This document shows positions 23,010 to 62,933 of a stretch of 64,000 nt of DNA, one piece after another (position 1 is the first letter of the stretch; every line of letters starts with the position of its first letter). The notes under the pieces are model-generated. The model saw only the letters and a list, made by a program, of their open reading frames with translations, was not told where the DNA came from and made no database searches. The position numbers were made by a program, and so were the translations under genes. The DNA comes from Rhodocollybia butyracea (lineage: Eukaryota > Basidiomycota > Agaricomycetes > Agaricales > Omphalotaceae), in the NCBI GenBank assembly GCA_015501585.1, contig JADNRY010000070.1:1-64000 (forward strand), given 5' to 3'.

Positions 23010-23550
23010 CGGAATTTGAACGGTTCTGGGCGCTAGCTTAGAATTCTCCCACGGTCCTGCACTGCAGTATAGCAGTATCCTGTCCGTGTGATTTTAGCTA
23101 GTGGGCGGCATGGGTGCCTCTGTAAGGACTCGGAATTTCGGAAAGAGGGTATGTTGACTACTTCTTCCAATATTGAACCATACACCTTACACTGATTTAG
23201 TAACTGTTCGAGCAATAAAAGGGTCGGGGAATGATCATGAAGATGTACAGTGAGCGCCTTGAATAGCCCAGCTTGGGAACGCGATCCTGACATAAAATAT
23301 AGCAGGTCCAGAGTCTGCACCCCAATTAAAGCAACAACATGCCGTACTCTTTGATTGTTTCCAATTTTGTTGCTCGACTCTGCTCGACTAGTGGAGAGCC
23401 AAGATAGTCAAGAGTGCCTCAGGAAAAAAACGTAGCTATCAAGGCAAAGTTGCCGCGATTCCAAGCGAGCAGCGCAGTGGCCGTGTTTTCATTTCCATAC
23501 AACATAAGTATCAGTATATCTATGAATGAACGCGAACCGGCATTACATAC
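23010..23550. repeat. UBA2/membrane-protein spacer, present in several copies
   Basis: No gene. The approximately 170-bp segment 23,205-23,375 (GTTCGAGCAATAAA ... TTCCAATTTTGTTG) recurs at about 52,400-52,560, 54,790-54,945, 57,780-57,955 and 60,155-60,320. Two of these five copies belong to the membrane-protein/hydrolase spacer, so the same repeat lies on both sides of the membrane-protein gene. Confidence 0.75.
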
Positions 23551-23553
23551 GAT

Positions 23554-24800
23554 TTACCCTTCATTACCGTGACGGCGTGTTGAATGCAGTGACAACGTCT
23601 CCCCCGCTGGCACTGGAACTTCGGATTGTTCAAATGGCAAAGGGAGTGTAGTAAGCACTCCGATACTGAGTTCACGTCCCCTCATACGGCCCAGTCTTAC
23701 TTCCCTAAACACATGTCCTGCCATGACATTGAGTATCACTGAATGTAATGGAATGAGTAATGGTCGATATCCAGGAAAAAGTGAGCTGTTTAGCAACAGG
23801 CCAAGTGTCGCGGCCCCAGTAATTACGCTTATTCTGTATCACTATAAACAACTTGAACTTGACCGTACTGGAAAGGAAACTCACAAGTAGTAGAACTGGC
23901 CATCGCGCAAGATTGCTCGAGTCAAGGATGGAAGTTCCCTTCCTGCAATGGTCGACGCCCTTGCCTTGAATTTCTGCATGCGGGTTGGCCTCTCCCGGCC
24001 CCCTTCTGGTGCTGAAATACAACCCATAGCAGAACGATTTGACCGAGGATTAGCGGCAATGAATAACAAAGACAAGTGATAAATCCGGTACGAGATTGCC
24101 AGAAACACACAACTGTCATAGAGCAAAATTGCCATAACAGGCAGGCCGACGCGTATCCAATAGCTGGTATCTGCAGGATAATTCGTGCATTCTGAACGTC
24201 CGACAGAATACACAGTAAAAGATGCTCCGCCTGATGCAAACACCCAGAGTGCGAAAAAGATCCCTGTCTTGAGCTGACTGCCCTCACAGTAGATCACCTT
24301 GACACGAATGAAGAATTGAAATAGTGTAAACACTATGGCGACAAAGTTGGTTGAGATGGCTGCCAGTGTTATTGAAGGTTTACATGTTACTGCGTTATCT
24401 ATCCAATAACAATAATGCGACCGTGCTATGTAGACTTGAGCTTACTTACCTGCAATTATAACGCAGGAAGTTACCAGAGAAAAAAATCTGTTGAATGTTC
24501 CCGGCGAGCATAAGTTTCAAAAAATTACTACTAAGTATGATGTGGCACACCTCGATAGAAAATAAACAATTGTTGGTGGCCGACATCTGCCCGGTAGAAA
24601 GAGTAATTTGACGTCGTCGGCGATGTGAATCACGATATCCCAAATCATGATCTGTGAAGTAGTAAATGAACAAATTACACGGGTTTTTCGAAGCGTTTAA
24701 CACATACCATCGCAGTCATCTGCATCATATACGCAAAGATCAACAGGGATTTGATGGTGGCCAAATCTTCATTGGAAGGAGGCTGAGAAGGCAAAGACAT
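23554..24800 (-). CDS. Basidiomycete seven-helix membrane protein (copy 1, intact)
   Basis: Five exons (24,708-24,800; 24,551-24,651; 24,450-24,487; 23,885-24,389; 23,554-23,785) splice to 322 residues with consistent phases. Several hydrophobic spans are visible (LVTSCVIIA, FVAIVFTLFQFFIRV, GIFFALWVFASGGASFTVY, GLPVMAILLYDSCVFLAISYRIY). The C-terminal signature is LNVMAGHVFREVRLG, typical of a large uncharacterized Agaricomycete seven-helix family. The topology suggests a receptor-like protein, but ligand and function are unknown. Two further copies (52.7-53.9 kb and 58.2-59.4 kb) carry frameshifts, so this is the only one that looks functional. Confidence 0.82.
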
Positions 24801-25011
24801 GGGTATGAGCTGGGAGGCAAGGTGGACACAAGGGCCTGGGGAAAATATAGGAGGGGTCTGGTACATATGTACACTATCGCAAGGGTCGTGATACAAATCC
24901 TATTCAATACACCGTGACCGTCCACTAATGCTGACTGTGAAAATGACTGAAATTGTTTGGCGAATGTATCTTTCTGGCCAAGCTAAGTTGGCAGCTGCCA
25001 CCGTAATTTAA

Positions 25012-43095: not shown

Positions 43096-43399
43096 GCCCA
43101 TACAAATTTACTGTACAGTAGCTTACTGGGTTTTATTATCATAATCTCCACAACAGATACCAGGGGTATTTAAATAATGCTACTGAAGCAGCTGTAAGTA
43201 TAGACTACATACAACCGTAAGTACAGGTTTCACAATCAGATAAATAAAGTATAAACTCATCTCAGAAGTGTACTATACAAATGACTGAGGGGGAAAGGAC
43301 AATAAGTCTGGTATATAAGTAAGTACTCAAAACTGCCAAGTCATAGACAGATACTTGGATAAACAAAAAGGTAGAATAGATAATATAAGGAAAAGGGGG

Positions 43400-43960
43400 A
43401 AATTAAGGCCCCCCACGGAAGGATAAACCATAAGATGACGCAAAATGCATCCCACCTACTCCAGATGTAGAAATGCAGGGCAGGACTCCTTGACCCGAGG
43501 CTCTTCCTTTGACACTAGGGCTTCCTGGAGGTCCCCAAACTTGTCCTTTTCTGAGAGGTAAACAGTTGTATAATGATGTATCATCTGCAAAGAAGGATGT
43601 GATAAGGCATTCAGACATGCCAGGGATCTCAAAGCCACTGAGCTTTGGAGAACTGCACAGCATCTCTGCCAGGGGCTCAATTGCAAGATCAAAAAGTAAG
43701 CAGGACAGAGGATCCCCTTGCCTTACTCCCCTTGTGAGGGTATATGGGAAACTAACTTCCCCATTTATTATTACACAGGTCTCTGTGCCAGTGTAGAGGT
43801 ACCGGACTGTGTTAATGAAAGGGGTTGGGAGGTTGAAAGCCTCCAGGGTCTTCCATAGGTAAGCATGAGAAACCCGGTCATATGCTTTTTCTTGGTCTAG
43901 TGTAACTATAGCCCCATTCTGAATCTCTTCTTCCGCATATTCAACAGACTTACAACTTTG
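43400..43960 (-). pseudogene. Reverse transcriptase fragment of a non-LTR (LINE) element
   Basis: On the minus strand: VTLDQEKAYDRVSH (RT motif A with the first catalytic Asp), then TRGVRQGDPLSCLLFDLAIE (motif B) and FADDTSLY (motif C, the catalytic pair). This is the order and wording of L1/Tad-like LINE reverse transcriptases. Frames shift after the FADD motif and neither endonuclease nor the rest of ORF2 is present. A dead fragment of about 0.55 kb. Confidence 0.88.
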
Positions 43961-44286
43961 AAGCTAACCCAAACTAACCAGAGGCATATATGGGACCAGA
44001 GAATCAAATTTATTATTTAAGAAAAGATTGGACACACCATAGAGCTAAGACAAGCACAGTGCAGCACTAAGCGCTTGAGCAGACAGCATCAGAAAGTCGC
44101 ATGTCAAACACTTTGACATTTCTAAATATAGTGAAACAATTCTCTCAAATTTGGATGAGATCAACCTGATCGGGACGAAATTCCCATGCAAAACCGGCAA
44201 TAAGGATGAGCCTTCATTACATTCAGGACTCATAACTATAATATTGTACAAGAAGGCACCATTCCAGCAAATGATAAATATGTGGT

Positions 44287-44528
44287 ACTTACACTGTTTT
44301 TCCTTGAAGATTGTTGATTTATATCTGCTGCACTTCAGACTATTGGATATGTATTCAACCAGTTCCCTCACTGTCATCCTCTGCTAAATTTTCTTACTTT
44401 TGTGCTCCAATATATAAGGCACACAATTAAGGGACAGCAATCTTAAAATTCAGTAGTCCTGTAGACTGTTACAGAGCTCATAGCAACAGTGTATCAAGTG
44501 ATAGGTTACTTTGATTTAATGTGGCTCC
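44287..44528 (+). repeat. Fragment of the duplicated spacer
   Basis: Similar to 54,163-54,400 and 59,640-59,770 (shared AT(C)TGCTGCAC, TATTCAACCA, CTGCTAAATTTTCTT), the spacer after membrane-protein copies 2 and 3. It marks host sequence reappearing after the mobile block, just before the helicase/DUF6589 segment. Confidence 0.7.
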
Positions 44529-45244
44529 TGAGGCCTGAGCCTAGCCTGGTAACCAAGCCCTTAAGAGGTTGTCATTGTTAAACAAGGAACCTCGTTAGAG
44601 GGCTTGGTAAACCAGAAGCAAATTGTTGCACAGACTTTGCTGCTGTCAAAACTGCTGTTAGGCAAGCCTAATAAGGCAGGACCTAATTGGGATTTAGAGA
44701 TGGGAAAACAGCAATGTTTGGCTTTAACAGTTTACTTTATCTGCTCATGTACTTTTTTTGAAAATCTTTCATGTAACAATGTGTCCAATGTATAATGGAT
44801 CAAGCTATTGGTCCTCATAGTCTCTCAGATTCCCTAGACAAAATCTGCAATAGCAACTGGACCCAACTCAGTGTTAAATACACAACCATTGAACCTCACA
44901 TTCACTGTAAATTTCCTATTCATTTTATACTCTCTCTTTCTTGGGATGAAGGAGGACATGAAGCAACCGATATTCAGATTCTTGCAATCCGCCTCAGTTT
45001 ACTGGTATTCTTTGCAACAATAGGACAAGAAATCCCAAAGATCTTCCAGTTGCAGGCAGCTCTCAAAGCTCACCAGTGAAACTCATTGATTGTAGCTGGT
45101 ACTGAGTCTGGGAAGACACACATAATGGCACTGCTGATGTTGCTTGAAAAACCAGACTTGACAAAGGCGTTCATTACAATCTCACCCTTGAAGAGACTTC
45201 AAGAGACCCAGGTGCACCTTTATACAACTAGTATTTCATTACTG

Positions 45245-45617
45245 CATCAGGAAAAGCCGTTTTTGCCTAGGTGACCCCAGAGTGGCCTAAAGAAAACTAG
45301 GTGACCTATGAATCCTATGGCATCCTAGGAATTTGGGCTCGTCCCTTGCCAGTCAAGGCTCTTGAAGATTCCCTAGGCAAGCCTAGGTCTGCCCAGGTTT
45401 GCCCAGGTGCTCCTGGGGAACACCTGGGGAACACCTGGGCAAACCTGGGCAAACCTAGGCTTGCCCTGGGTTTGCCTAGGATACCCTAGGGAATCCTCAA
45501 GAGCCTTGACTGGCAAGGGACAAGCCCAAATTCCTAGGATGCCATAGGATTCATAGGTCACCTAGTTTGCTTTAGGCCACTCTGGGGTCACCTAGGCAAA
45601 AACAGCTTTTCCTGATG
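45245..45617. mobile_element. Large palindromic foldback element in the helicase intron
   Basis: The two halves are near-perfect inverted copies over about 170 bp each: CATCAGGAAAAGC at the left, GCTTTTCCTGATG at the right. The centre is built of short CCCAGG/CCTGGG repeats. Flanks splice to helicase sequence on either side. Two mirror-image reading frames cross it because it is a palindrome. Not coding. Confidence 0.88.
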
Positions 45618-47030
45618 TGGCAACTAATCCATAATAGGTTTCTTCATTTCTACTCAAATATGGGATTAAATTGTTGGCAATCAATCAAGATACCCCAAAG
45701 GATGTTGACTACTGGCGGGTATGTCAACAACCAATTAATACTACCTTCAATTCTCAATCTATAATAGGCCAACATCCACAATGGACAACAGGGACATTCA
45801 CAACAAGGAACTGCCCGACATCTCATAGTCACAGCTGAACAGATGTTCAAATCCACAGATGGTCATATCACTCGCTTTACTCTTGCTCTTCGAAACCCTG
45901 CTTTCTGATAACATATCTGTCATGTCAATGTTGATGAAATTCATTATGTCTATTAGTATGCTGGTATTGAACAGTATGGAGTACCTCTATTTCACTCTGC
46001 CTGGGGCCATTTCTCTGAAGTGAAGATGATGCTACTGAAGACAGTCCACCGGCATGGATTTACGGCAATGTGCCCTCCTCATGTCCAGGACATACTGGAA
46101 ACCTCCCTGCTAGGCTCGGATTATGTATTGGTGAAAACTGGTATCAACTGGCCTACAATGGTGTATGTGCATCACTGCATTGTCAAAAGCTTTCAAACCC
46201 TCGAAAGCTTTTTGTGCTTTATACAAACTCCCTTCCCTGTCAATGGAACACCACAAGACCAGCCTCGGACCCTCATCTTCTTTGACAACAACAACCTAGC
46301 GCAACAAGTTGCTAGATTCCTCAATTGACATGCTCCTTCTCAGTTCCAAGGAACAGGTTTTGTACATCATTACTACAGTATCATGTCTCCTCAGTATCTC
46401 GAGCATGTACACAATGACTTTACCTGTCCTGATGGTCCCTGCCGTCCTGTGTGCTACATCTGGAGAGTTGACGGTATGATTATCTATGTTGCCTTTCATC
46501 TGTACTAACTTAGCTTCATAGGGTATTGATTTCCCCAATGTTCAGATCACAGCAAATGTTTGCATTGTGGAAGAAAGCAAAAGTGACCAGTGGAAGGGAA
46601 GATGTGACCATAGCTCAATCAGTGGGCTACATGTGGTGTTCTATGAACCATGGGTTCTTGACATCAAACTCACCAAGTTCAACAACAAGGACCTACCTTT
46701 CAATAAGGATCCAGACTGTCCATGGACTGTGCTCAAGGCCGGCTCGAACAAGTAGGATTGTGTTCCTTGGTCTGGGATTGAATCTATCCTTGCTCCCTGT
46801 GTCCGCAAGCACAAAGCAAATTATTTTGTAGACAGTTCAATTACGCATACATTTATTTTGCTGCTGGCGTTTATTTTGCTTACTGAATTATTTTCTAACT
46901 GTTGGCACAGGCCTCAACTATGAGAAGGAATGTTGTGATGGTATCAAACATGGGACAATGTTTCATCTTCAAGACCATCTTCCAGGACCTCTCTATGCTG
47001 TACTCCCAGATGCCACATCTCAAAAATGAC

Positions 47031-47336
47031 AAGCCATGGATGACAAGCCATGGATGACAAGCCATGGATGACAAGCCATGGATGACAAGCCATGGATGAC
47101 AAGCCATGGATGACAAGCCATGGATGACAAGCCATGGATGACAAGCCATGGATGACAAGCCATGGATGACAAGCCATGGATGACAAGCCATGGATGACAA
47201 GCCATGGATGACAAGCCATGGATGACAAGCCATGGATGACAAGCCATGGATGAGCATATGACAAGCCATGGATGACAAGCCATGGATGACAAGCCATGGA
47301 TGACAAGCCATGGATGACAAGCCATGGATGACAAGC
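47031..47336 (+). repeat. 14-bp minisatellite inside the helicase gene
   Basis: About 21 copies of GACAAGCCATGGAT with one interruption near 47,252. It starts just after a sequence encoding ATSQK and ends at the conserved C-terminal region. Because 14 is not a multiple of three, the plus frame meets stops, while all three minus frames stay open and spell the same rotating peptide. Confidence 0.95.
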
Positions 47337-47810
47337 CAAGGGTAGAGCTCAACAAGGAAGAAGAAAGCATTGAAGAAGTGTGGTCAACTGCTAAATCAAC
47401 AATGGAAACAGCTATACAGTCAACAGTGGAAACAGTGATAGAGTCAACAGTGGAACTGGTTGTAAAGAAGAGAAGGGTTGCACATTTCAAGGTGGCACTT
47501 ATGGAATGCTTGTTACATTGGCGGAGGGCTGAGCATGCAAAGATTCCAATTTGCACTGTTTATCCAGAATACTTGATGATCACTGATGAGGCACTCAATA
47601 CTCTCAGCAAGGTGCATCCGCTTGACATGCAATCTTTTACAGATGTTATTGCGGAACTGGGTGAAGACCCCAATGGAGACATTGCTAGGCTATGGGCATG
47701 AAAGATTTTTGATGTGATTATGCATTTGATACAGAATATCCTGCTACTGTAAAAAAAAAAAAAAAAAAAGTGTAGCTCAACCTTGAAAGAAGACTCATAC
47801 ATAGAGAATA

Positions 47811-50800
47811 TTATACAGCCTCTGTGGTTCCCCACTGCATCGGGGGTAATTTATCATGTTCCATTTCTGGGGCATCACCAATGTCCTCCAACCACTGTGC
47901 CTTCATCCTTTTGTTGAAACTAGTGATCAACCACCTCAACTTTTGGTACCCATCTTCTTGTATATCAGTTATGTGACTGAGTTTAACAGGAAGATTGAGC
48001 TTTTGATTAGTGTCATATTCCAAGAGCTTTTTGCGCTCAAGAGCCTGAGCAACCTCCCAAACTAAATCTGTAGTATCAACACCATTGTGAGTTTTTTTTC
48101 TTGTATGAGGTCTCGAACATTTCCCCAACTTTCTTCTTTGCAGCTTGAGTATGTGTAGTTGAAGCAGAAATGTCTCCAAGGTGATCCCAGTCTGCATGAA
48201 TACCTTTTGCACAATAAGTCTCCTGTAGTTAAATCAGAATACTATTGCTGTACATATACAAGAAACAAACCTTGATATTACCAATGTTATGCTCAATGTT
48301 CAAATCGGCACCCATGAAATGGTCTGGCACACCTGAGATATTGACAAGATGGTTATCTTGCATAATATTGCTGTAACTCATGTGTCAGAAGCAGTCACGG
48401 CCTAGAGTTTCTAAATAATGTACCCAAATTCTGGTTGCCAGATGTACTTGAGATTGTAGATAAGATGCAGTATCTCAGTTGTGTACTTGTTTGATCCCAT
48501 ACTACGGAATATTGCAGCAAGGTCTGGTAGTAGATCTTGTTGGTATGAGTCTCACTGTATTGATTAGATAGTTACATCAGATCACATGTATCTTGACAGG
48601 CGCTTAATTAATTGTTGTTTTGTCTGCCACATTGTTGTTGCTTGCTCATCTTCATTTGTGGAGCCATCTGGGGTTGTAAAGTTCAACAGATCTTTGATAC
48701 GTCCAATATCACCACAAGAAACTGCAGAAGTGACCTCTGAGAGCACAAGGAGATCTCAAGCCAAGAGCTGGAGGTTACAATGGCAAATGTCATCTGCAGT
48801 TAGAGGCACTGATTCAGTGGGAGATTTTTTAGTGTTTGCTGGTAACGGAGTTTTAGTGTTTGCTGGTAATGGAGCAACTGGTCCTTCTGGTTGAGTATGA
48901 GCTATTGAAGTAGCATATTTCAAAAGAATTTTCTCTGCTATTTTTCAGAGCTTTTCAGGACCAGGTTGTGATTCAGCAAACTTCTCCAGTGAGCTGTATC
49001 TGCACTCTCTGATCCATCCACTAATCAAGATACCATCAAGGATTTGGAACAAAGTGGAAGAAAGAGCATGGAAGTTAGGTTTATTGTTGGCAAGATGTTT
49101 CTTGTCCATGATTTGGAAAAAGTATGCAAGGCTCCCAGGAATATGAGCTGAACCATAGTGTTTGATTCCTAGAGCCCATATGTAATTCATGACCTTGTGA
49201 AATAGAGTGAGTCCGATTGCAAAAACCTCACATTGCAACCAAGGATTGAGATCTCCCCTTCTTGATACAACACATCCCTGAATTTGTGCATTTGTTAGCT
49301 GGTCATCAATCATCACAATAGCATATTTTGACAGTTCAGGATCCAGGGGATCACGTTTCATCTGCATGATATAAAAATCATCTTGGTTCAGCAAGTTCCC
49401 TTGTGTCGACTTTTCCTCTATTGCAGTGGTTCATAGTGGATAAAATTCAGTCTTTAGATTTGGAGGAAGGGGACAACAAGACTTGTGTTGGAGAAGGAGA
49501 TGAGATTTGATATAATCAAAGCTTTTGGCACATCGCGGTAGTACACAGATTATATTGATGATTGTCTGGTGATAATAAAACTCGAGTTGTTCAAATGTAA
49601 GCTGGACATCTGATATCTGGAGAGGAATTGTTCATTGGAGGTTCTGTATGATAGGTGCCAGGAGCATATGCTCTCGATCCTTGACACCAAAAAGCTTGTA
49701 AATCATGGGAAAACAATCAGACCGTACTTTACTCATGGCCATCTTGGTTTGTTCAACATGCTTGGAGGTAGAGATATCAATGTTGTCATAGTAGTTGAGC
49801 ATATGAGGGCCATGTGAAAGTTTAGCAGTGATTGTGACTCCTTGATCAGCCACCATCTTGATCATCTTCATAATCATTGGACTCAAGACAGAGAGTGCTG
49901 CTGAATCTAAAACCTCAATAGTTTGTTTCAATGTCCCTGTTGACCATGCATACATGCCAAGCAGAGACTGAAGCTTTGCACATTGTAATGAGTGCAAGTT
50001 CATAGCCTGACATGTCATAACAAGACATCCCTGTAGGTAAAGAAAATGATTTTAATTTGAGAAGCTGCAAAGAAACACTATCCTTACCACTTCTGTCTCC
50101 TTTGCTTTGGCTTCCAACTCCACGCCTCCAGTAGCAGCCTTCAAAATGGCCATCCAATCGTCCAGATGTCCTTCAACCAAAGCCTCTGACATCTTCCTGA
50201 AGATCAAAGGTTTCCAGAAAGTCAAGCAAGAAGTCCTTGGTAGTCATGTGGAAGAAAGGCTTTGCATCCTCCATTTGATGCAAGATTTGTGTGCAAAACT
50301 GTGTCCACAGGATATCGGCAGGTAGACAGTTCATAAACGCATCCTGTCCAACTGTATTGCTGTAGATGAGGGAAAGAAGCCGAGGCAGAATGGTAGAATC
50401 ACATCTAAAGAAAGTGTTTCAAGATTGAGAGAACTCAATGTGCAAGGGTTCAAGAATGGTACATATCATTTCGAAAGGTGATAGTTTGAGTTCCTTGAGC
50501 TTTCCGAGGGCTATCTGTGTCTTTGACACAAGCAAAATATGTTTCTGATGAGGAGGAAGAGGAGGAGGCAGAATGGTGAAGTCAGGACTATTTATGATAG
50601 ACTCTGGTGAGTTTGTTACATCGGAAATCAGCCCTGGAGTCATCAGGCTCCAGTTACTACTGCGTCGGCTCTCCAGTATAGGTGTTTCAGGGACAGAGAG
50701 ATCATGATTAGACAAATCATGGCTCCAAGGGCTATGTCAACTTGGTGTTTCAGGAATAGAAGAGAAGGTTGATTTGAAGAATGTACTCAGGCCCATGGAA

Positions 50801-51637
50801 AGTAATGGTCCACTACTGTTTTGCCCATAACTTTTGAACTAGCTCATATTTTTACTAGATCTAAGTTATGAACTTGGCCTACATACTCAGTGCAACCATG
50901 GCAGACTCATAAATAGACTTCCTCTATGAATTATTTGCTATGTTTAGCTTATTATAAAATTATGAAAATGCTTCAAAACAGTACCGCAATAAATATCGAG
51001 TTCTGCACCCAAAGATCCTTACTAATGGAAAGCCAGACATTGAAAATGGGGAAATACATTTTTTTCATAATTTTCAGTCAAGAATACAATCTACTATAAG
51101 AGGTTGAAGTAAAGCTTAGATGAAACTTATCATCTATTTCATGCAAGAAATTCCCACGCTTTCCCCTTATGGATATGCAAAGCTAAGAGTTTCTACCAGG
51201 TATATCAGGCCTATGTGTTGTTTCATTCAAATTTATTGTGTCCTTGTAGTGATATTTACTGTTTTTATTGAAGAGACACAATCGGCCTGTTACTTTCCGG
51301 GCGCCTGAGTAGAGGTGGGACTCCAGCTACTACTGCCTGTAGAGAATAAGTCATTATGAGCCTCGTTGGCAACTGATGGCATGAAAGGCTGGTCTAGAAC
51401 AAGCCCAAGGATTGGAGTCAGTGGCTTGTTACTGAGCGGTGACTGCATTGCAGAGTTTGTATATCCTTCAATACTGAATGCAGCAGAGGCCTGCTTCCTT
51501 CTCTTCTTCTTTATTGGACCCACATTCTGCAAAATGAAGTTATCTGGTAACAAAGTTGACGTTGCTTGGAGAGGTGCTGTGTTGTCATGCTTATAGTTCT
51601 GAACAGAGAAGAACATTTTGAGTTGACCAGGTTCCAT
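47811..51637 (-). CDS. DUF6589-type protein, repeat-associated
   Basis: Pieces from N to C: 51,637-51,290 starting MEPGQLKMFF with a nuclear signal PIKKKRRKQ; 50,715-50,419 (SKTQIALGKLKELKLSPFEMICTIL); about 50,400-50,110 (GQDAFMNCLPADILWTQF, ALVEGHLDDWMAIL); 50,018-49,632 (LLGMYAWSTGT, LNYYDNIDIS); 49,394-48,945 (IDDQLTNAQIQG, EVFAIGLTLFHKVMNYIWAL); 48,212-47,811. The YDNI and DDQLT motifs with the following LFH stretch are those of the large DUF6589 family of Agaricomycetes, of unknown function and mostly found in repeats. A possible small frame break lies near 50,195, and 50,740-51,290 may be a long intron or an insertion. Possibly the transposase of its element; that is inference. Confidence 0.6.
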
Positions 51638-51902
51638 AGAAATAAGATTAAGATTAAGAACAGTAAAGAAAACACGTCGTTGACGATGCAACGAACAAAG
51701 TTGAAAGTACAGAGGCAGGATTTTAAACTTTCCCATCTCTAATTCCAAATCGGGTCTTGCCTTTTTAGGTTTGGCACTCAGGCCCGGCAATCCGAAAAAG
51801 TCTGTGCGAAAAAAAAACTGCCGGTTTCCAGGCCCTTCTAACGAAGTTTCTCGCATAGGCCGCAACATCTTAGAAGGGACTGCTTTAGGCCTAGCCTGAG
51901 CC

Positions 51903-52690
51903 TAGACCATAAACAAAAAACAGGGGTTTTCTTCACAGTGAGTTGAGTCTTCTTTTGATAAGTACTCGTTTTGTTTTTCCGCTATATAAACTTCACAACC
52001 GCGACCCGCTGTCAATCATCTGAGAACTTTATATTTTGTAGGGGAAAGGACGTGCGGGTTTCGAGGCAAGTGGTTATTTGGTTCCTACTTGTACGGAACG
52101 CTCACTCGCGAGTTTCTTGCTTTGCTGGTGATATTGATAACACTTTATTTTTTTCTGGCTTCCCAGTTCTAGAAAACACCTTTGCGAAACAAAAGTGGTA
52201 GGCACGTCGAGAGACCCGGTTCAGATTCTGCCGAGATAGAAGAAGGTGCAACGTATGACTCAAAAAATGGCGAAACAAGCCACGAAAGCTGGTATGGTTC
52301 ACATAGGACTTGCTGATAAACATTCTACTTATTACGAAAACAGGGTGCGTTGACAATTTTCTACAACACCGAAACATACATCTCAGTTGCTCTTAAGTTC
52401 GAGCAATAAACATGGGGAATTATCGTAAAGATGTACTCAGTGCTTGAGGGGTCCAGCTATGGAACGCAATCGTGACAAGCGGGTCCACAGTTTGCACCCC
52501 AGCTAGGGGACAACTTGCAGTACTCTTTGATTGCTTCCAATTTTTGTTGTTCTCTACTGGAGATGATCAGAGTGATAGCCTGAAGAAAACGTAGCTACCA
52601 CGACATTGTCGAGATTCTAAGCAAGTGTAGTGGTTTTGATTATTTTCTTATACGTAGTACATCGGTAAGTATATGAACGCGAACTGTCAT
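51903..52690. repeat. Resumed spacer and 3' flank of membrane-protein copy 2
   Basis: 51,903-52,400 matches 54,410-54,810 and 59,870-60,180 (GTTGAGT, CACCTTTGCGAAA, GAGACCCGGT, AACTTGCTGATAAACAT). From about 52,400 it merges into the 170-bp repeat that also lies at 23,205-23,375. No gene. Confidence 0.75.
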
Positions 52691-52694
52691 CACT

Positions 52695-53922
52695 CTACTC
52701 TTCATTGCCGTGACGGCGTATTGAATACATTGACAAAGTCTCCCCCACTGGCACTGGAACTTCAGATTGTTCAAATGGAAGAGGAAGTGTGAACTCTTCG
52801 ATGTTGAGCTCACGTTCCCTCATACGGCCCAGCCTTACTTCCCTAAACACATGTCCTGCCGTGACATTGAGTATCACTGAGTGCAACGGAAGGAGTAATG
52901 ATCGATATCTAGGAATTGAGTTGTTCAACAACAGGCCAAGTGTCGCGGCGCCAGTTATTACGCTTATTCTGTATCATTATAAACAACTTGAACTTGACCG
53001 TTCTGGAAAGCAAACTCACAAATAGTAGAACTGGCCATCGCGCAAGATTGCTCGAGTCAAGGACGGAAGCTCCCTTCCCGCAAGGGTCAGCGCCCTTGCC
53101 TTGAATTTCTGCAAGAAGGTCGGCCTCCCCATTGCGTCCCCCCTTCTGATACAGAATCACAGTCCATAGCAGACTGATTTGACCGAGGATTAGTGCGATG
53201 AATAACAAAGACAAGCGATAAATCCGGTACGAGATTGCCAGAAACACGCAACTATCATAGATCAAAATCGCTATAACAGGCAAGCTCATGCGTATCCAAT
53301 AGCCGGTATCTGCAGGGTCATGATTCGTGCATTTTGAATGTCCGACAGAATACACAGTAAAAGATGCTCCGCCTGATGCAAACACCCAGAGTGCGAGAAA
53401 AATCCCGGTTTTGAGCCTACTACCCTCACAGTAGATCACCTTGACGCGAATGAAGAACTGAAATAGTGTGAACACTATGGCGATAAAGTTGAATATAATG
53501 ACTGCCAGTATTACTGAGGGTTTACATGTTGTACCTAGAGTCCAATAACAATAACTCGACCGTGCCAGGTAGACTTGAGCTTACTTACTTACCTGCAATC
53601 ATAGTGCAGGAACTTATCAGAGAAAAGAATCTGTTCCCGAGCATAAGTCTCGACAGATTATCTGGTTAATATTATGACGTGGCACACCTGGAGAGAAAAT
53701 AAACAATTGTCGGTGGTCGACATCTTCCCGGTAGAAAGAGTAATTCGACATCGTCGCGATGTGAATCACGATATCCCAAATCATGACCTGCCAGTGAAAT
53801 ATTATTGAACAAATTACAGCGGATTTTTCGGCACATACCATCGCAGTCATCTGCATCATATACGCAAAAATGAAATGGGTTTGAATATCTTCATCGGAAG
53901 GAGATTGAGAGGGCAAAGACAT
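52695..53922 (-). pseudogene. Seven-helix membrane protein, copy 2, frameshifted
   Basis: Same start (MSLPSQSPSDED), intron positions and hydrophobic spans as copy 1. A missing base in exon 2 (IVIHIA then out of frame) and a 2-bp loss after SLLFIA in the long exon break the frame, which runs on as LILGQISLLWTVI. The C-terminal exon (LNVTAGHVFREVRLG) is preserved. Not functional as it stands. Confidence 0.85.
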
Positions 53923-55340
53923 GGGTATGAGCTGGGAGCAAGGTGAGCCTCGGGAAATGTAGGAGGGGTCTCAAACTCAGCTGAAGGTACATATGTACTT
54001 ATATACCATTGCAAGGGTCGTGATATTCAGTTTACCGTCCAGACTGCGAACAAGGCTGAAATTGTTTGGCGAGCGTATCTATGTAAGTAGCCCGACGGTT
54101 TTAATACTGTACATATGTACCGAAGCTTTGGCAGCTGTCATCGTAACGCTGTAAGTAATAACAGTGTTTCGCATGAAAGTTTGTCGATTTCTATTTGCTG
54201 CACCGCAGAGTCCGGACTACTGGATAAGTACTCAACCAAGATGAATGCTGACGAATGTCATTTCAACCCACTGAGCCGCCTGTCGTCCTCTGTGCTCTGA
54301 TTTACTATAAGGCCCACCATGAGGAGAGGAAATTTGGAAAAGCATCGCAATTCGAGAAGCAAAATCTGTGAGGACGTCCTTACGCTGAATGAGTGTGGCT
54401 CCTAAGCCTACCATGACATAGACCATAAACAGAAATGAACTAGCGTGAAAAAAATGTGGGTTTTCGAGGCCTCTTTTTCGCAGTAAGTTGAGTTTCACCA
54501 CTGCAAGTACTCCGGGAATTTTTCCTGGATGTAAACTTTGGCTCTTCAATTATAGAATGCACCTTTGCGAAATAGAAGTGGTAGAGGATAGGGCAAGAGA
54601 GACCCGGTGTAGATTTTTCCAGGATGGAGGAGAAGGCGTATGATGCTTGAGCCAAAGGTTTTCAGTAGGGCGTACTCGAAGAGACGGCGAAGCAAACAAG
54701 AGCTGGTATCTTTCGCATAGAACTTGCTGATAAACATCCCACTCATCACAGAATGAGCGTATCTTGACAATACCGAAACATATGTCTTACGTTGCTGTTC
54801 GAGCAATAAACACGATGAAGGTCATGAATGACCCGGCTGTGAAACGCGATCGCGACATAAATTATAGCAGGTTCGGAGTCTGTACCCAAGCTAGAGCAAG
54901 TTCCGGGGACACTCTTCAAGTGTTTCCAATTTTGTTGCTTTCGACAGGAGAGGTAAGACGATTAATAGCCCCGAGAGATAACCAAGGCTTTGGACCGCGT
55001 TGAGAACGGAGTCGGCACTACAGTGTGGACTGTTAGTTCCGAAGATATCAAGGACAGGATGCACAAGTTGCATCCGGAGCTGTTACTGCTGCGCGGGGCT
55101 TGAGCTGGTTTGCTCAGCGCAATATCGATTTCGACGCCAGTCCCATGATGGAGACAATTTCGGACAACCCATCAATGGCAAGTGGCAAGACAGGAAGCAC
55201 AGGTCGAACTCCAGACAATAATCCAAAGAATAAGATGATGTTGGAGTCTATCCATATAATATATATTAGTATACTTGCGAATCTAGATCGGTATGGTCCC
55301 AAAAAAAAAAGCATCTAAAAACAAGCCAAACGAACATAAA
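53923..55340. repeat. Spacer between membrane protein and hydrolase, copy 2
   Basis: No gene. It is the counterpart of 59,354-60,729 and, in its middle part, of the split spacer at 44,287-44,528 plus 51,903-52,400. It contains a copy of the 170-bp repeat at 54,790-54,945. A stretch of about 70 bp (54,385-54,450, with GTGGCTCCTAAGCC and ATAGACCATAAAC) is absent from copy 3 and resembles the sequence at both edges of the helicase/DUF6589 segment. Confidence 0.65.
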
Positions 55341-56900
55341 TTATAAGCCCTGCAACATCCCCGGATCCTTCTTAAGTTCGGTACCATCGATAAGAGCGCT
55401 ATCAACCTTCCGACACCCAAGACCCTCCCTCACTCCATCAACCTCTCGAATCCACCCACCTTCATCCATGTATACATCCCTCGGTGGATTATCAATATTC
55501 CCATGAACTAAAACCTCTGCAGCTAGACGAAGCCACTCCAACGTTGGTTTTGTCATCCATCTCTTTATGTGCAGCTTCGATAGGTCGGTTCCAATAAGCA
55601 CTCTTCCAGAAGAGGGCTCAAACCATCCAGATGTCCGCCACCGTGTGTCAACGCCACGATGGTATATCCAGAACCAATCCCTCAGCACTTGTCGGCGCAT
55701 GTACGACAACGGGATCGTCTGTAGAGTTGATCGCTAGGAGAGGTTTGCGGACTTGGGGTACGACGTGATGGCTGGAGGAGTGTTTGTAATAGGCATCGGA
55801 TGAAGGTAGCGGCCAGATTGGAGGTGCGCCTCCGCCAACGTGAGTAATACAACTTACGCCCAGTTGTTCTTGACCAAGTCCCAAGGCTCAGCGCTCAGCA
55901 ACGAAATCAAACGGATGTATTTCGGGCTCACGTTTCCAAGTACACAGACCGATTCAAGACGACTTCTTTCACCCTCCTCGGCCTGATATCTGACCATGAC
56001 ATTTGCTCCGAGAGAAAAGCCTAAGCCGATCTGCGGCGCTCTTGGATACTTGTGGGCCAGATATATCGTGGCCATTCGAAGGTCTTCAGTCCATCCAGCA
56101 GAATATAACTGTTTCGTTGTAACTGGAACGCCAGCACCTATAAGCCAAGAATAATAAGTTTTTAAAATGAGTACGAAACGCACATCCTCGGAAGTTTACA
56201 ACAACTGCACGATAACCAAGTCCTCCCTCTGAAATTGGTGCGCAAGCTGGGGCCAAAACAGCTCGGACGTAGGCTTCGTACGAACCTAGTTATAAGGAAG
56301 GAAGTAGTCGGAATTAATTCGGAATCAGATTTGGTTCACATTATTGAAACTAGAAGGAATATACCTCCGGTCAAGCCATGGCAAACAACGATGATGGGCG
56401 CGTCGTCTGGAAAAGTGTCGCCTGGAGGAGTGAAATCAAGTCCTCTGTAAACTAGTCAGCCAATACAAATGAGAGATTTGGAAAGTATACGCACAATGTA
56501 CCACCATCCATTAAACGAAGGTAAGTTCTGGGAAGGTAAGTAATCGTCAGGAAATGTATACTTGGATATCCAGTATCCAGCCAACGTACCTCTCATACAT
56601 GACCTTGTCTATGTTGGTGAAATCACCAAATATACTGTACAATGTCTGTAAATGGCCGCTGTTCATGCACGATAAGAACGACTATTGACAAGGAAAGAGA
56701 TGTAAAAACACATTTGTTCAGCCACCACACTGGATTGAATGCCAACCTCAAGCTGGGACAATGTTCTTCGACCAGTTTCGATAACGACTCGGGTCCAGTT
56801 CCTCCTCCAGGCTTCTTGACCATCACCTCAGCAGGTGTCGGAGGGTAAAAGATTGTGGGTGCCTTCGGCGAGCTGAAAGCGGACCTCATACCGTCTCTGG
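55341..56900 (-). pseudogene. YheT/EMB8-type alpha/beta hydrolase, copy 2, disabled
   Basis: Close copy of the intact gene at 60,730-62,571. The nucleophile region GLGFSLGANVM is present. However, about 270 bp are deleted (copy-3 positions about 61,237-61,505), removing most of the exon from LEHTFIGKEI to SLFDHTF. A one-base loss near 55,670 shifts the frame (APTSAEGLVLD), and a second near 55,630 destroys the catalytic His segment (GGHLGWFE in copy 3, RTSGWFE here). Confidence 0.9.
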
Positions 56901-56965
56901 GTTCAAGAAATTGACTACAGGGGTGAGATCGAAGGTAAACCGGGCATTTGAATGAGCGCACAGAC

Positions 56966-57137
56966 CGAAGTAGCCTGCTCCTACGAGAAGTACTTTGGTT
57001 TCCGAGAGCTGAGAATGAAGTTCTGGAATGGCTTCTGCATGGTTGATACGTCCTGCGGCAGTGGAAATAGTAGATAAGTCCCGAATCCAGGCGCAAGAAA
57101 GTAGAGACGCGGTGGTGCAAAAATAACAAGCTTAACT
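56966..57137 (-). pseudogene. UBA2 first-exon fragment at a duplication junction
   Basis: Matches 22,838-23,010: the region encoding the start of UBA2 through KVLLVGAG plus its upstream DNA, with a small internal deletion. The ATG is changed (ATTTCCACT). It abuts hydrolase copy 2 upstream DNA (GCGCACAGACCGAAGTAG) at about 56,965, so this is the breakpoint between two duplicated units. Confidence 0.85.
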
Positions 57138-57567: not shown

Positions 57568-57575
57568 GCTTAACT

Positions 57576-58150
57576 TGAATGGTTCTGGGCGCTAACTTAG
57601 ACTTTTCCCACGGTCTTTGTAGTGTGTATCCATTATGATTTCGCAGTTACCAGTGTCCGCGTGATTTTAGCTGGTGGGTGGCATGGGTGCCTCTTTAAGG
57701 ACTCGGAATTACAGAAAAGGGGCATGTTGACTACTTCCAACGCTGAACCATACGTCTTACACCGATTTAGTCCTAACTGTTCGAGCAATAAACTCGGGGA
57801 ACCATCGCGAAGATGGGAGTATCTTGAATGGCCCAGCTTGGGAACGCGGTCCCGACATAAATATAGCGGGTCCAGAGTCTGCACCCCAGTTTGAGCAAGA
57901 ACCTGCAGTACTCTTTGATTGTTCCAAATTTTGTTGCTCTCGACGTAGTAACGGAGAGCCAAGATAATCAGAGTGCCTCAAAAAACCCAAAGAAACGTAG
58001 CTATCAAAGCAAAGTTGTCGCGATTCCAAGCGAGCAGTGCAGTGGCCGTGGTTTCATTTCCATACAATGTATCAGGACGTCTATAAACACGAACCGGCAT
58101 TACATACGATTTACCCTTCATTGCAGTGACGGCGCATTGAATGCGAAGAC
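57576..58150. repeat. UBA2/membrane-protein spacer, copy 3
   Basis: Counterpart of 23,011-23,550, including the 170-bp repeat at 57,780-57,955. No gene. Confidence 0.8.
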
Positions 58151-58153
58151 AAA

Positions 58154-59353
58154 TTAATTATAAAGTCCCCCCACTGGCACTGGAACTTCAGATTGTTCAA
58201 ATGGCAAAGGGAGTGTAGTAAGCACTCCGATGCTGAGTTCACGTTCCCTCATACGGCCCAGTCTTACTTCCCTAAACACATGTCCTGCCGTGACATTGAG
58301 TATCACTGAATGTAATGGAATGAGTACTGGTCGATATCTAGGAGAGAGTGAGTTGTTTAGCAAGAGGCTAAGTGTTGCGGCCCCAGTAGTTACGCTTATT
58401 CTGTATTATTATAAACGACTTGAACTGACCGTTCTGGAAAGCAAACTCACAAATAGTAGAACTGGCCATCGCGCAATATTGCTCGAGTCAAGGATGGAAG
58501 TTCCCTTCCCGCAATGGTCAACGCCCTTGCCTTGAATTTCTGCATGCGGGTTGGCCTCTCCGGTCCCCTTCTGGCGCTGAATTACAACCCATAGCAGAAC
58601 GATTTGACCGGGATTAGCGGCAATGAATAACAAAGACAAGTGATAAATCCGGTACGAGATTGCCAAAAACACGCAACTGTCGTAGATAAAGATCGCTATA
58701 ACAGGCAAGCTCATTCGTATCCAATAGCCAGTATCTGTAGGATCATGATTCGTGCAAGGTTGTCCGACGGCATACACAGTAAAAGATGCTCCGCCTGATG
58801 CAAACACCCAGAGTGCGAGAAAGATTCCTGTTTTGAGCCTACTACCCTCACAGTAGATCACCTTGACGCGAATGAAGAACTGAAATAGTGTGAACACTAT
58901 GGAGATAAAGTTGAATATAATGGCTGCCAGTGTTACTGAGGGTTTACATGTTGTATCTATCCAATAACAATAACTCGACCGTGCTAGGTAGACTTGAGCT
59001 TACTTACCTGCAATTATAATGCAGGAATTTATCAGAGAAAAGAATCTGTTCCCGAGCATAAGTCTGGAAAATTTTTGGTGTTAACTATGACTTGGCGGAC
59101 GTGGCACACCTGGATAGAAAATAAACAATTGTTGGTGGCCGACACCTTCCCAGTAGAAAGAGTAATTTGACATCGTCGGCGATGTGAATCACGATATCCC
59201 AAATCATGACCTGGTGAAGTATTTTAATAAACAAATTACAACAGATTTTTCGGCGCATACCACTGCAGTCATCTGTATTACATACCCAAAATTGAGCTGG
59301 GATTGAATGATTGCCAAATCTTCATTGGAAGGGGATTGAGAGGGCAAAGACAT
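58154..59353 (-). pseudogene. Seven-helix membrane protein, copy 3, frameshifted
   Basis: Start and the first exons are intact (MSLPSQSPSNED; IVIHIADDVKLLF). A one-base loss after FIAANP shifts the long exon (GQIVLLWVVIQ). The C-terminus ends early (VPVPVGGLYN) compared with copy 1 (VPVPAGETLSLHS). Same intron positions as copy 1. Confidence 0.85.
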
Positions 59354-60729
59354 GGGTAAGGGCCGGGAGGCAAGGTGAGTCTGCCAACTTGGGAAATGTG
59401 GGAGGGGCTAGGAGGGGGTTCGAACTCAGTGAAGGTACGTATGTACTACATATGTATAGGGCCATTGCAAGGATCATGATATTCAATCCAATATCCACCA
59501 ATACTTGACTGCGAACGTGGCTAAAGCTGTTTGGCAAGTGTATCTAAGTATGTAATAAGTAGTATCTACTTATGTACATACCAGTTTGCTTTAGCCAAGC
59601 TTTGGCAGCTGTCGCCGTAACGCTGTAAGCAATAACAGTGTTTCGCACAAAGTTTGTCGATTTCTATTTGCCGCACTCCAGACTACTGTACTTATATGTA
59701 TTCAACCAAGATGAATGCCGTTTCAACCCTCCGAGCCGCCTGTCGCCCTCTGCCGAATTTTCTTGCTCTGATGACTATAAGACAGACCATGAAAGGGGCA
59801 GGAGAGAGGAAAAGCATTGCAATTCGAGAAGCAAAATATTTGAGGGCGTACTAACGACGAATTTTCGAGGCCTGTTTTTCGCGGTCAGTTGAGTCTTACC
59901 ACTGTAAGTAACTCTGGGAATTTTTCCTCGATGTAAACTCTGGCTCTTCAAATCTGGGGGACCTTTGTGAAATAGAAGTGGTAGAAGACAGGGCACGAGA
60001 GACCCGGTGTAGATTCCGCCGCGATAGAAGGAGAAAGGCCTACGCTCGAGCCAAAAGTATTTCGGTAAGGGGTATGACTCGAAGAAATGGCGAAGCAAGC
60101 AAGATCTACCATCGTTCGCGTAGAACTAGCTGGTACTTACATCGGTCCAGTTGCTATTCGAGCAGTAAACACGGGAAATCTTCATGAAATTTACTGAGTG
60201 TCTTGAATGATCCGGCTATGAAACCAGATCGCGACATAAATTACACCAGGTCCGGAGTCTGTACCCGAGTAGAGCAAGTTCCGGGGACACTCTTCAAGTG
60301 TTTCCAATTTTGTTGATTTCGACGGGAGAGGCAAGACGATTAGAGTAATAACCTCGAGAGATAATCAAGGCTTTGGACCGCGTTGAGGATGGAGTCAGCG
60401 CTACAGTGTGGGCTGTTAGTTCCGAAGATACCAAGGACAAGATGCACAAGTTCATCCGATAAGATCGCCATTCCGAAACTGTTACTTCTGCTCGGGGACG
60501 TTAGCTGGTTTCCTAGTGCGAGATAGGTTTTAACGCTAGTCCCAACTTCGGACAACCCATCAATGGCGAGTGGCAACGTAGGAAGCAGAGGTCGAACTCC
60601 AGACAGTAGTAATCCAAAGAATAAGATGTTGGAGTCTATCCATATAATATATATTAGTAATACGTTGCGAATCTAGATCGGTACGGTCCCAAAAAAAAAA
60701 GCATCTAAAACAAGCCAAACGAACATAAA
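59354..60729. repeat. Spacer between membrane protein and hydrolase, copy 3
   Basis: Counterpart of 53,923-55,340, with the 170-bp repeat at 60,155-60,320. Only short unsupported reading frames. Confidence 0.65.
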
Positions 60730-62571
60730 TTATAAGCCCTGCAACATCCCCGGATCCTTCTTAAGTTCGGTACCATCGATAAGAGCGCTATCAACCTTCC
60801 GACACCCAAGACCTTCCCTCACTCCATCAACCTCCCGAATCCACCCACCTTCATCCATGAATACATCCCTCGGTGGATTATCAATATTCCCATGAACTAA
60901 AATCTCTGCAGCTAGACGAAGCCACTCCAGCGTTGGTTTTGTCATCCATCTCTTTATGTGCAGCTTCGATAGGTCGGTTCCAATAAGCACTCTTCCAGAA
61001 GAGGGCTCAAACCATCCTAGATGTCCGCCACCGTGCGTCAACGCCACGATCGTATATCCAGAACCAATCTCCTCAGCACTTGTCGGTGCATGTACGACAA
61101 CAGGATCGTCTGTAGAGTTGATCGCTAAGAGAGGTTTACGGACTTGGGGTACGACGTGGTGGCTGGAGGAGTGTTTGTAATAGGCATCGGATGAAGGTAG
61201 CGGCCAGATTGGAGGTGCGCCTCCACCAACGCGAGTGAAAGTGTGGTCGAACAAACTGAGCGGAGGATTACGCAACGATATTGCGGCGTGATATGCAGCG
61301 CAGACCATGGAGGCTTGGGAAGCATCAGGCTCGTACTTGGATGTGGGAGAAGGCGTTGGCGGGTCCACTGTTTCCAGGGACTTGGAATGTACTTTCAAAA
61401 GATTGACCAGGTTGTTCGCCATGCCTTTAGAGTAGATTTCTTTTCCTATGAAGGTATGTTCAAGCCTTAACACGAGCGTCAATACCAGATATGGACCAGG
61501 GTAGAGAAAATACAACTTACGCCCAGTTGTTCTTGACCAAGTCCCAAGGCTTGATTTACGAAGAACGCGTCAGCAACGAAATCAAACAGGTGCTATTTCG
61601 GGCTCACGTTTCCAAGTACACAGACTGATTCAAGACGACTTCTTTCACCCTCCTCAGCCTGATATCTGACCATGACATTTGCTCCGAGAGAAAAGCCCAA
61701 GCCGATCTGCGGCGCTCTTGGATACTTGTGGGCCAGGTATATCGTGGCCATTCGAAGGTCCTCAGTCCATCCCGCAGAATATAGCTGCTTCGTTGTAACT
61801 GGAACGCCAGCACCTATAAGCCAAGAGGAATAAGCTTTTACAGTCTGAGGCAAACGGGTATGAGACGCACATCCTCGGAAGTTTACAACAACTGCGCGAT
61901 ATCCAAGTCCTCCCTCTGAAATTGGTGCGCAAGCTGGGGCCAAAACAGCACGGACGTAGGCTTCGTACGAACCTAGTTGGAAGAAAAGTTGGAATTGATT
62001 CGGAATCAGATTTGGTTCACATTATTGGAACTTAAAGGAATATACCTCCGGTCAAGCCATGGCAGACAACGATGATGGGCGCGTCATCTGGAAAAGTGTC
62101 GCCTGGAGGAGTGAAATCAAGTCCTCTGTAAACTAGTTAGCCAAATACAAATGAGAGAATTGTAAACTATACGGACAATGTACCGCCATCCATTAAACGA
62201 AGGTAAGTTCTGGGAAGGTAAGTAATCGTTAGGAGATGCAAACTTGGATATCCAGTATCCAGCAACGTACCTCTCATACATGACCTTGTCTATGTTGGTG
62301 AAATCACCAAATATACTGTACAATGTCTGTAAATGGCCGCTGTTCATGCACGATAAGAACGACTATTGACAAGGAATGAAACGTAAAAAACACACTTGTT
62401 CAGCCACCACACAGGATTAAATGCCGACCTCAAGCTGGGACAATGTTCTTCGACCAGTTTCGATAACGACTCTGGTCCAGTTCCTCCTTCAGGCTTCTTG
62501 ACCATCACCTCAGCAGGCGTCGGAGGATAGAAGATTGTGGGCGGCTGCGGCGAGCTGAAAGCGGACCCCAT
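60730..62571 (-). CDS. YheT/EMB8-type alpha/beta hydrolase (intact copy)
   Basis: Family includes yeast EHT1/EEB1 ethyl-ester synthases and animal ABHD1/3 lipases; acts on acyl esters. Starts MGSAFSSPQPPTIF at 62,571 and splices through seven short introns; I checked phases at each. Motifs in order: NNGHLQTLYSIFG, GLDFTPPGDTF, VVCHGLTGGSYEAYVRA (oxyanion region), VNFRGCAGVP, GLGFSLGANVM (nucleophile Ser), NSTDDPVV (Asp), THGGGHLGWFE (His). The C-terminus IDGTELKKDPGMLQGL ends at 60,730. One intron near 62,170 has a weak donor (GTCCGT, where copy 2 has GTGCGT). Lies beside membrane-protein copy 3; copy 2 of the hydrolase is disabled. Confidence 0.9.
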
Positions 62572-62933
62572 AGCGTCTCTGTGCTCAAGAAATTGACTAC
62601 AGGGGTGGAATCGAAGGTAAACCGGTCATTTGAATGAGCGCACAGACCGAAGTAGAAACGAAGAAACGATCTGATTGGGCCGACAATTTCGGGAGAATTC
62701 ATTGACCGGCACGATGCATGTACATAATACCCTACTAGTACTTCCGACTTCGAAGAGCCTCTCAGAAGCTTTTGCTTCAAACAAATACGTCGCTAGAGCA
62801 CCAGCGATCTCCTGCGTGAGCTATAGAGCAGCGAAAGATACTGAAGCGACTTGAACATCGGTGGACCCAGGTAAAGTTCAAGTTCTTTGATAATAGTGTC
62901 AAGTTTCAACGAACTAAGCAGGGTAAGACACAA

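Follow-up and report, generated by a model that had tools for sequence, protein, structure and literature searches.

The window, a 64,000-nucleotide stretch of the genome of Rhodocollybia butyracea (Agaricales, Omphalotaceae), contains two broken genes that face each other between inverted ends. The features at this locus are as follows.

44542..51893, no strand: whole transposon of 7352 bp with tips TAGCCTGG... and ...AGGCCTA, common to other copies that have 9-bp duplications of their own
44533..44541, no strand: left target-site duplication GCCTGAGCC, same as 51894-51902 and directly abutting the element tip
51894..51902, no strand: right target-site duplication GCCTGAGCC, same as 44533-44541
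44542..44731, plus strand: left terminal inverted repeat, from alignment to the right end; relatives elsewhere in the genome
51704..51893, minus strand: right terminal inverted repeat, from alignment to the left end; relatives elsewhere in the genome
44795..47719, plus strand: broken RecQ-type helicase gene, from tblastn with the L011 helicase
47811..51637, minus strand: broken DUF6589 (PF20231) gene, a predicted DDE transposase, from PF20231 matches, tblastn pieces, and the fold of relatives
45245..45617, no strand: nested foldback repeat of 373 bp in the helicase gene, with 153-bp arms that are 93% complementary
47026..47327, no strand: 14-bp tandem repeat in the helicase gene, 21 exact units of ATGACAAGCCATGG (repeat family D1)
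50841..51312, no strand: repeat of about 470 bp nested in the coding sequence for DUF6589, where it separates residue 94 from residue 95; left edge approximate

In a scan that allowed lengths of 8-11 bp, a perfect 9-bp duplication, GCCTGAGCC, was found directly outside the tips TAGCCTGG and TAGGCCTA, and the element therefore spans 44542-51893. Long inverted ends had been proposed for this locus in an earlier sequence-only reading. The ends are indeed inverted copies of each other, but their outer edges are at 44542 and 51893, not at 44529 and 51902. Alignment of 44542-44731 with the reverse complement of 51704-51893 gave 133 identities, 37 mismatches, and 40 gap positions; the inverted repeats are imperfect, with 133 of 170 aligned bases (78%) identical. 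The alignment score was 104, compared with a mean of 15.4 (sd 5.5, maximum 43) in 300 shuffles.

The helicase gene was recovered by tblastn in pieces between 44834 and 47719 on the plus strand, 43-54% identical to the helicase of the copy L011, which has the Pfam domains DEAD and Helicase_C and for which RecQ helicases are PDB matches. The PDB gave no match to a short fragment of the window helicase, and the C-terminal part of the window helicase is HRDC-like by eye only. The DUF6589 pieces run on the minus strand from 51511 to 47829 (tblastn), and PF20231 matches three stretches with 158.6, 49.6, and 26.1 bits, the third reaching 186.7 bits with its neighbours in frame. The Rhodocollybia butyracea protein P0060 (BDP27DRAFT_1422650) is identical to the window frame 48945-49430 over 156 residues. 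As the sequence-only reading had it, the two genes converge on a gap of about 110 bp, with facing in-frame stops at 47699-47701 (helicase) and 47811-47813 (DUF6589). Good start codons are located at 44795 (plus) and at 51637 or 51616 (minus), placing the gene starts about 90 bp inside the last ungapped block common to both ends (44663-44707 and 51729-51773), again as described earlier. The genes are also damaged as reported, by stops, frame changes, the 373-bp foldback repeat, and the repeat of roughly 470 bp.

For the foldback repeat, the best 40 of 673 candidate places match, mostly over the full length with 97-99% identity, pointing to the recent amplification of a nonautonomous repeat in a burst. 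Partial or full copies of the 470-bp repeat, 77-93% identical, are present on eight other contigs. Spacer DNA from other units had been claimed on both flanks. In a self-comparison of the window (E <= 1e-8, at least 60 bases, within-window matches only), this held for the right flank from about 52270 on, but the left flank had no match in 43100-44541. The surroundings include a reverse transcriptase remnant (PF00078) at 43403-43963 on the minus strand, probably of a LINE-type element, and three long related units at 23013-24971, 52331-56973, and 57572-62655, which are 78-92% identical over stretches of 1-2 kb. The frame 52909-53580 on the minus strand looks hydrophobic by eye and had no Pfam match at E <= 0.01.

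We searched the Rhodocollybia butyracea genome (95.6 Mb in 1381 contigs) for relatives at the DNA level. The left end had at least 44 matches and the right end at least 40, and 68 PF20231 matches were grouped into 41 clusters. The regions taken for study were 20 around paired ends and 31 further stretches. Four copies have ends of 266-268 bp with about 99% identity.

L011, on C1225: 5938 bp
L014, on C449: 5953 bp
L015, on C268: 5276 bp, N-terminal DUF6589 frame kept
L017, on C390: 3161 bp, helicase present

L011 and L014 have identical flanks and represent one insertion site, which was counted once. No PF20231 match was found in L015 or L017 by the profile search of the genome contigs, and L015 has lost the DUF6589 domain. 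A RecQ-type helicase lies between the ends in the window element, L011, L014, L015, L017, and L033. The better-preserved relatives, paired ends, and empty sites that the sequence-only reading asked for are present in the same genome (L011, L014, L015, and the C1310 site described below).

Among 21 scanned sites, the 9-bp duplication is perfect at 13, matches at 8 of 9 bases at two (L019 and L026), and is absent at six (L022, L027, L029, L030, L032, and L034). A separate scan of ten short loci found perfect 9-bp duplications at L023 (438 bp) and L025 (440 bp), 8/9 duplications at L026 (428 bp) and L056 (628 bp), and none at the other six. These short copies are end-only derivatives. A stricter end scan found no ends in L012, L022, L034, L035, L037, and L038, and it missed the L016 ends that were found in the duplication scan; a single end match in L036 was discarded because 1 of 500 shuffles gave a match too. 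L044-L052 were left out of the end analysis, and L013 was compared only with itself. The sequence-only reading had taken ends without genes, or genes next to unrelated ends, as signs of a chance association. Ends without genes do exist, but only as short derivatives that have kept the tips and the 9-bp duplications, and this outcome is as expected for a transposon. Genes with other ends also exist, in a second family with different terminal sequences, yet this family has the TAG tip and the 9-bp duplication.

This second, distant type of DUF6589 element is found at C656, C720, C401, C1310, and, truncated by the contig, C875. The copies at C656 and C1310 have 7088 columns in common at 99.7%. 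The tips start with TAG, and 9-bp duplications flank the copies at C1310, C401, and C720, whereas the scan allowing 8-11 bp detected no duplication at C656 (L032). The helicase and DUF6589 genes of this family are divergent, and the helicase of the C875 copy would fall past the contig end. The copies at C875 (L041) and C656 have an outer flank in common on one side and may be one insertion seen on two contigs.

Empty sites were searched with the joined flanks of seven sites, and the best 40 of 675 candidates were scored. The C1310 site is present without the element at C423, with 211/211 bases matching and a single 9-mer. Unoccupied relatives of the L015, L017, and L028 sites match at 98%, 93% (162/211 bases), and 87%, respectively; the L015 and L028 insertions lie in repeats. 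The sites of the window element, L018, and L020 had no empty match among the best 40 of the 675 candidates. A near-copy of the C1310 empty site at C443:66629-66858 (L060) has six extra bases exactly at the insertion point, which can be read as two shortened 9-mers separated by a single base. They resemble a repaired excision scar; this is one case, and it could be a small local duplication.

Two AlphaFold models of DUF6589 proteins, from two fungal phyla, have DDE transposases as their best structural matches with moderate Z. In the predicted fold, an all-helical insertion interrupts the RNase H core ahead of the final catalytic residue. The enzymes of hAT, P, and RAG1/Transib transposons have this same arrangement, and the structural alignments to Hermes, the P element, and RAG1/Transib have a sequence identity of about 7-13%. 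In both models, Hermes ranks above ISCth4, which we take to be an IS256-type enzyme. The conserved acidic residues of DUF6589 are D298, D458, and E734. E734 of P0021 is kept in 25/27 ungapped rows of alignment A2, and its site presumably corresponds to the catalytic glutamate position of Hermes, P, and RAG1, counted back from the alignment ends. E691 of P0021 was also considered as the third catalytic residue, but it is kept in only 26/31 ungapped A2 rows and E734 fits better. The predicted fold of the relatives and the conserved D, D, and E agree with the earlier suggestion that DUF6589 is the DNA-handling enzyme, and the DUF6589 protein is probably a transposase. In alignment A1, 34 of 50 DUF6589 proteins have a gap at the conserved EH motif (P0021 residue 734). 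Many mushroom DUF6589 gene models may stop before the EH exon, and the annotated proteins are possibly truncated. A literature search on DUF6589/PF20231 (also IPR046496, presumably the InterPro number of DUF6589) found no paper on the domain, many journals lying outside the search. A scan of viral contigs with the DUF6589 alignment found no relative.

With three helicase queries, 24 of the 41 DUF6589 clusters have a helicase no more than 8 kb away, compared with 0.55 expected; distances were taken from the start coordinates of matches, and copies within one family are not independent. In the other direction, DUF6589 is near 24 of 75 helicase clusters (three queries, 8 kb). When only one helicase query was used, 17 of 29 helicase clusters had DUF6589 at a distance of 8 kb or less (0.22 expected). 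The helicases of different families are only about 25% identical. The helicase is on the strand opposite to DUF6589 in the window and in 23 of the 24 pairs. The convergent layout stressed in the sequence-only reading is present in the window and in 18 pairs, but it is not fixed, since five pairs are divergent and one has the same direction. No helicase was found near 17 DUF6589 clusters, one of which (C875) ends at the contig edge. The co-location counts, 9-bp duplications, and empty sites bear out the proposal that both genes belong to a single mobile unit bounded by inverted ends.

Comparison of L011 with two diverged copies gave Ka/Ks values of 0.19 and 0.22 (helicase) and of 0.11 and 0.10 (DUF6589), the DUF6589 Ks being high in these two rows as well (1.28 and 1.38). 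From the seven-copy table, L014 was left out (same insertion as L011, with its DUF6589 row distorted by frame changes), and synonymous sites are saturated or nearly so in the rows for L021, the window, L037, and L016. At the level of coding sequence, the values indicate purifying selection on both genes, with both proteins kept working while the element moved.

The element appears to belong to a group of transposons already known from fungi and animals. We consider it likely that the window element is what is left of a DNA transposon of the AcademH type with two genes, a placement made by the described features (helicase, inverted ends, and 9-bp duplications). The observations comprise the boundaries, 9-bp duplications, empty sites, repeated gene association, selection, and predicted fold with its acidic residues. 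In the proposed mechanism, the DUF6589 protein would be a DDE transposase that binds the TAG...CTA inverted ends, excises the element, and inserts it at a target through cuts with a 9-bp stagger. Gap filling by host repair would then produce the 9-bp duplications. The element-encoded RecQ-type helicase probably unwinds the ends or a gapped intermediate, during excision, strand transfer, or repair. We infer catalysis, cut-and-paste rather than copy-in, and the exact step of the helicase.

The alternative that survives best, which we judge unlikely, is a separate superfamily defined by the DUF6589 transposase, with a helicase gained independently and unrelated to Academ. AcademH is reported in animals, and the named matches of DUF6589 in the profile search were only fungal, with no named animal relative. 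A RecQ helicase is present in another transposon lineage, KolobokH, according to excerpts of PMC9587614. However, AcademH as portrayed in the published excerpts agrees with these elements in its helicase, its inverted ends, its occurrence in fungi, and the 9-bp duplications, and the protein search relies on shared 5-residue words and can miss distant relatives. A wider form of this idea, which we hold to be doubtful, would make the DUF6589 elements a superfamily of their own in mushrooms and Mortierellomycota, with a RecQ partner kept across deep lineages, a flipping gene order, and a helicase that acts in the transposition reaction; the DUF6589-helicase partnership was observed in the Rhodocollybia butyracea genome only. 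If true, it would offer a testable two-enzyme DDE system.

A Mutator-like element (MULE) that acquired a helicase is very unlikely. Duplications of 9 bp and long inverted ends are usual in MULEs, and ISCth4 is among the structural matches of the DUF6589 models. MuDR and IS256 duplications are 4-10 bp in excerpts of PMC10045372. Against this origin, three DUF6589 proteins scanned against Pfam matched no MULE family up to E = 1, and Hermes outranks ISCth4 in both models. KolobokH, a published fungal lineage with a RecQ helicase, has an even smaller chance. Kolobok elements insert at TTAA, whereas the DUF6589 elements have diverse 9-bp duplications of unrelated sequence, and this lineage was rejected on these grounds. 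Like the DUF6589 elements, KolobokH and Kolobok-1_CCri pair a RecQ helicase with a DDE transposase; in excerpts of PMC9587614, the Kolobok-1_CCri helicase is likewise on the complementary strand. The KolobokH helicase lies downstream of the transposase domain in these excerpts, whereas the window helicase is a separate gene on the opposite strand. A coincidental pairing, in which a helicase and a DUF6589 gene of the host lie between diverged repeats, would suit an old, damaged copy with ends only 78% alike at aligned bases, but this negligible possibility is ruled out by the co-location at 24/41 places versus 0.55 expected, the perfect duplications, the empty sites, and the near-identical dispersed copies.

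Returning to the AcademH-type reading, what is new is the assignment of DUF6589 as a probable transposase, the element itself fitting a known kind. PF20231/DUF6589, with many mushroom and Mortierellomycota proteins, gains a probable function, and these proteins should be counted as likely transposases rather than host genes. The young copies with near-identical ends, the exact empty sites, and the candidate excision scar provide material for experiments on why some DDE transposons carry a RecQ helicase. The helicase-DUF6589 pairing is less new than first implied, because the helicase-bearing DDE transposons AcademH and KolobokH are already published.

Among other known systems, hAT (Hermes), P element, and RAG1/Transib enzymes resemble DUF6589 in the RNase H core and all-helical insertion. 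However, duplications are 8 bp in hAT, which is thereby ruled out, and 5 bp in Transib, compared with 9 bp in the DUF6589 elements. Helitrons have neither terminal inverted repeats nor duplications and are ruled out by the presence of both here; the helicase here is RecQ-type. The AcademH lineage of Academ DNA transposons was reportedly described by Kojima in 2020. Helicase-bearing Helitrons are reported from Agaricomycetes (PMC4289320). In excerpts of PMC10045372, duplications are 3 or 4 bp long in AcademX, which carries a nuclease, and 9 or 10 bp long in AcademH, which carries a helicase. Excerpts of PMC10799480 report AcademH from Basidiomycota, Ascomycota, and Mucoromycota, in low copy numbers. 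In Marasmius oreades, putative nonautonomous Academ elements occur widely, according to excerpts of PMC8290104. As far as these excerpts describe it, AcademH is like the DUF6589 elements in its on-board helicase, inverted ends, 9 or 10 bp duplications, and fungal hosts.
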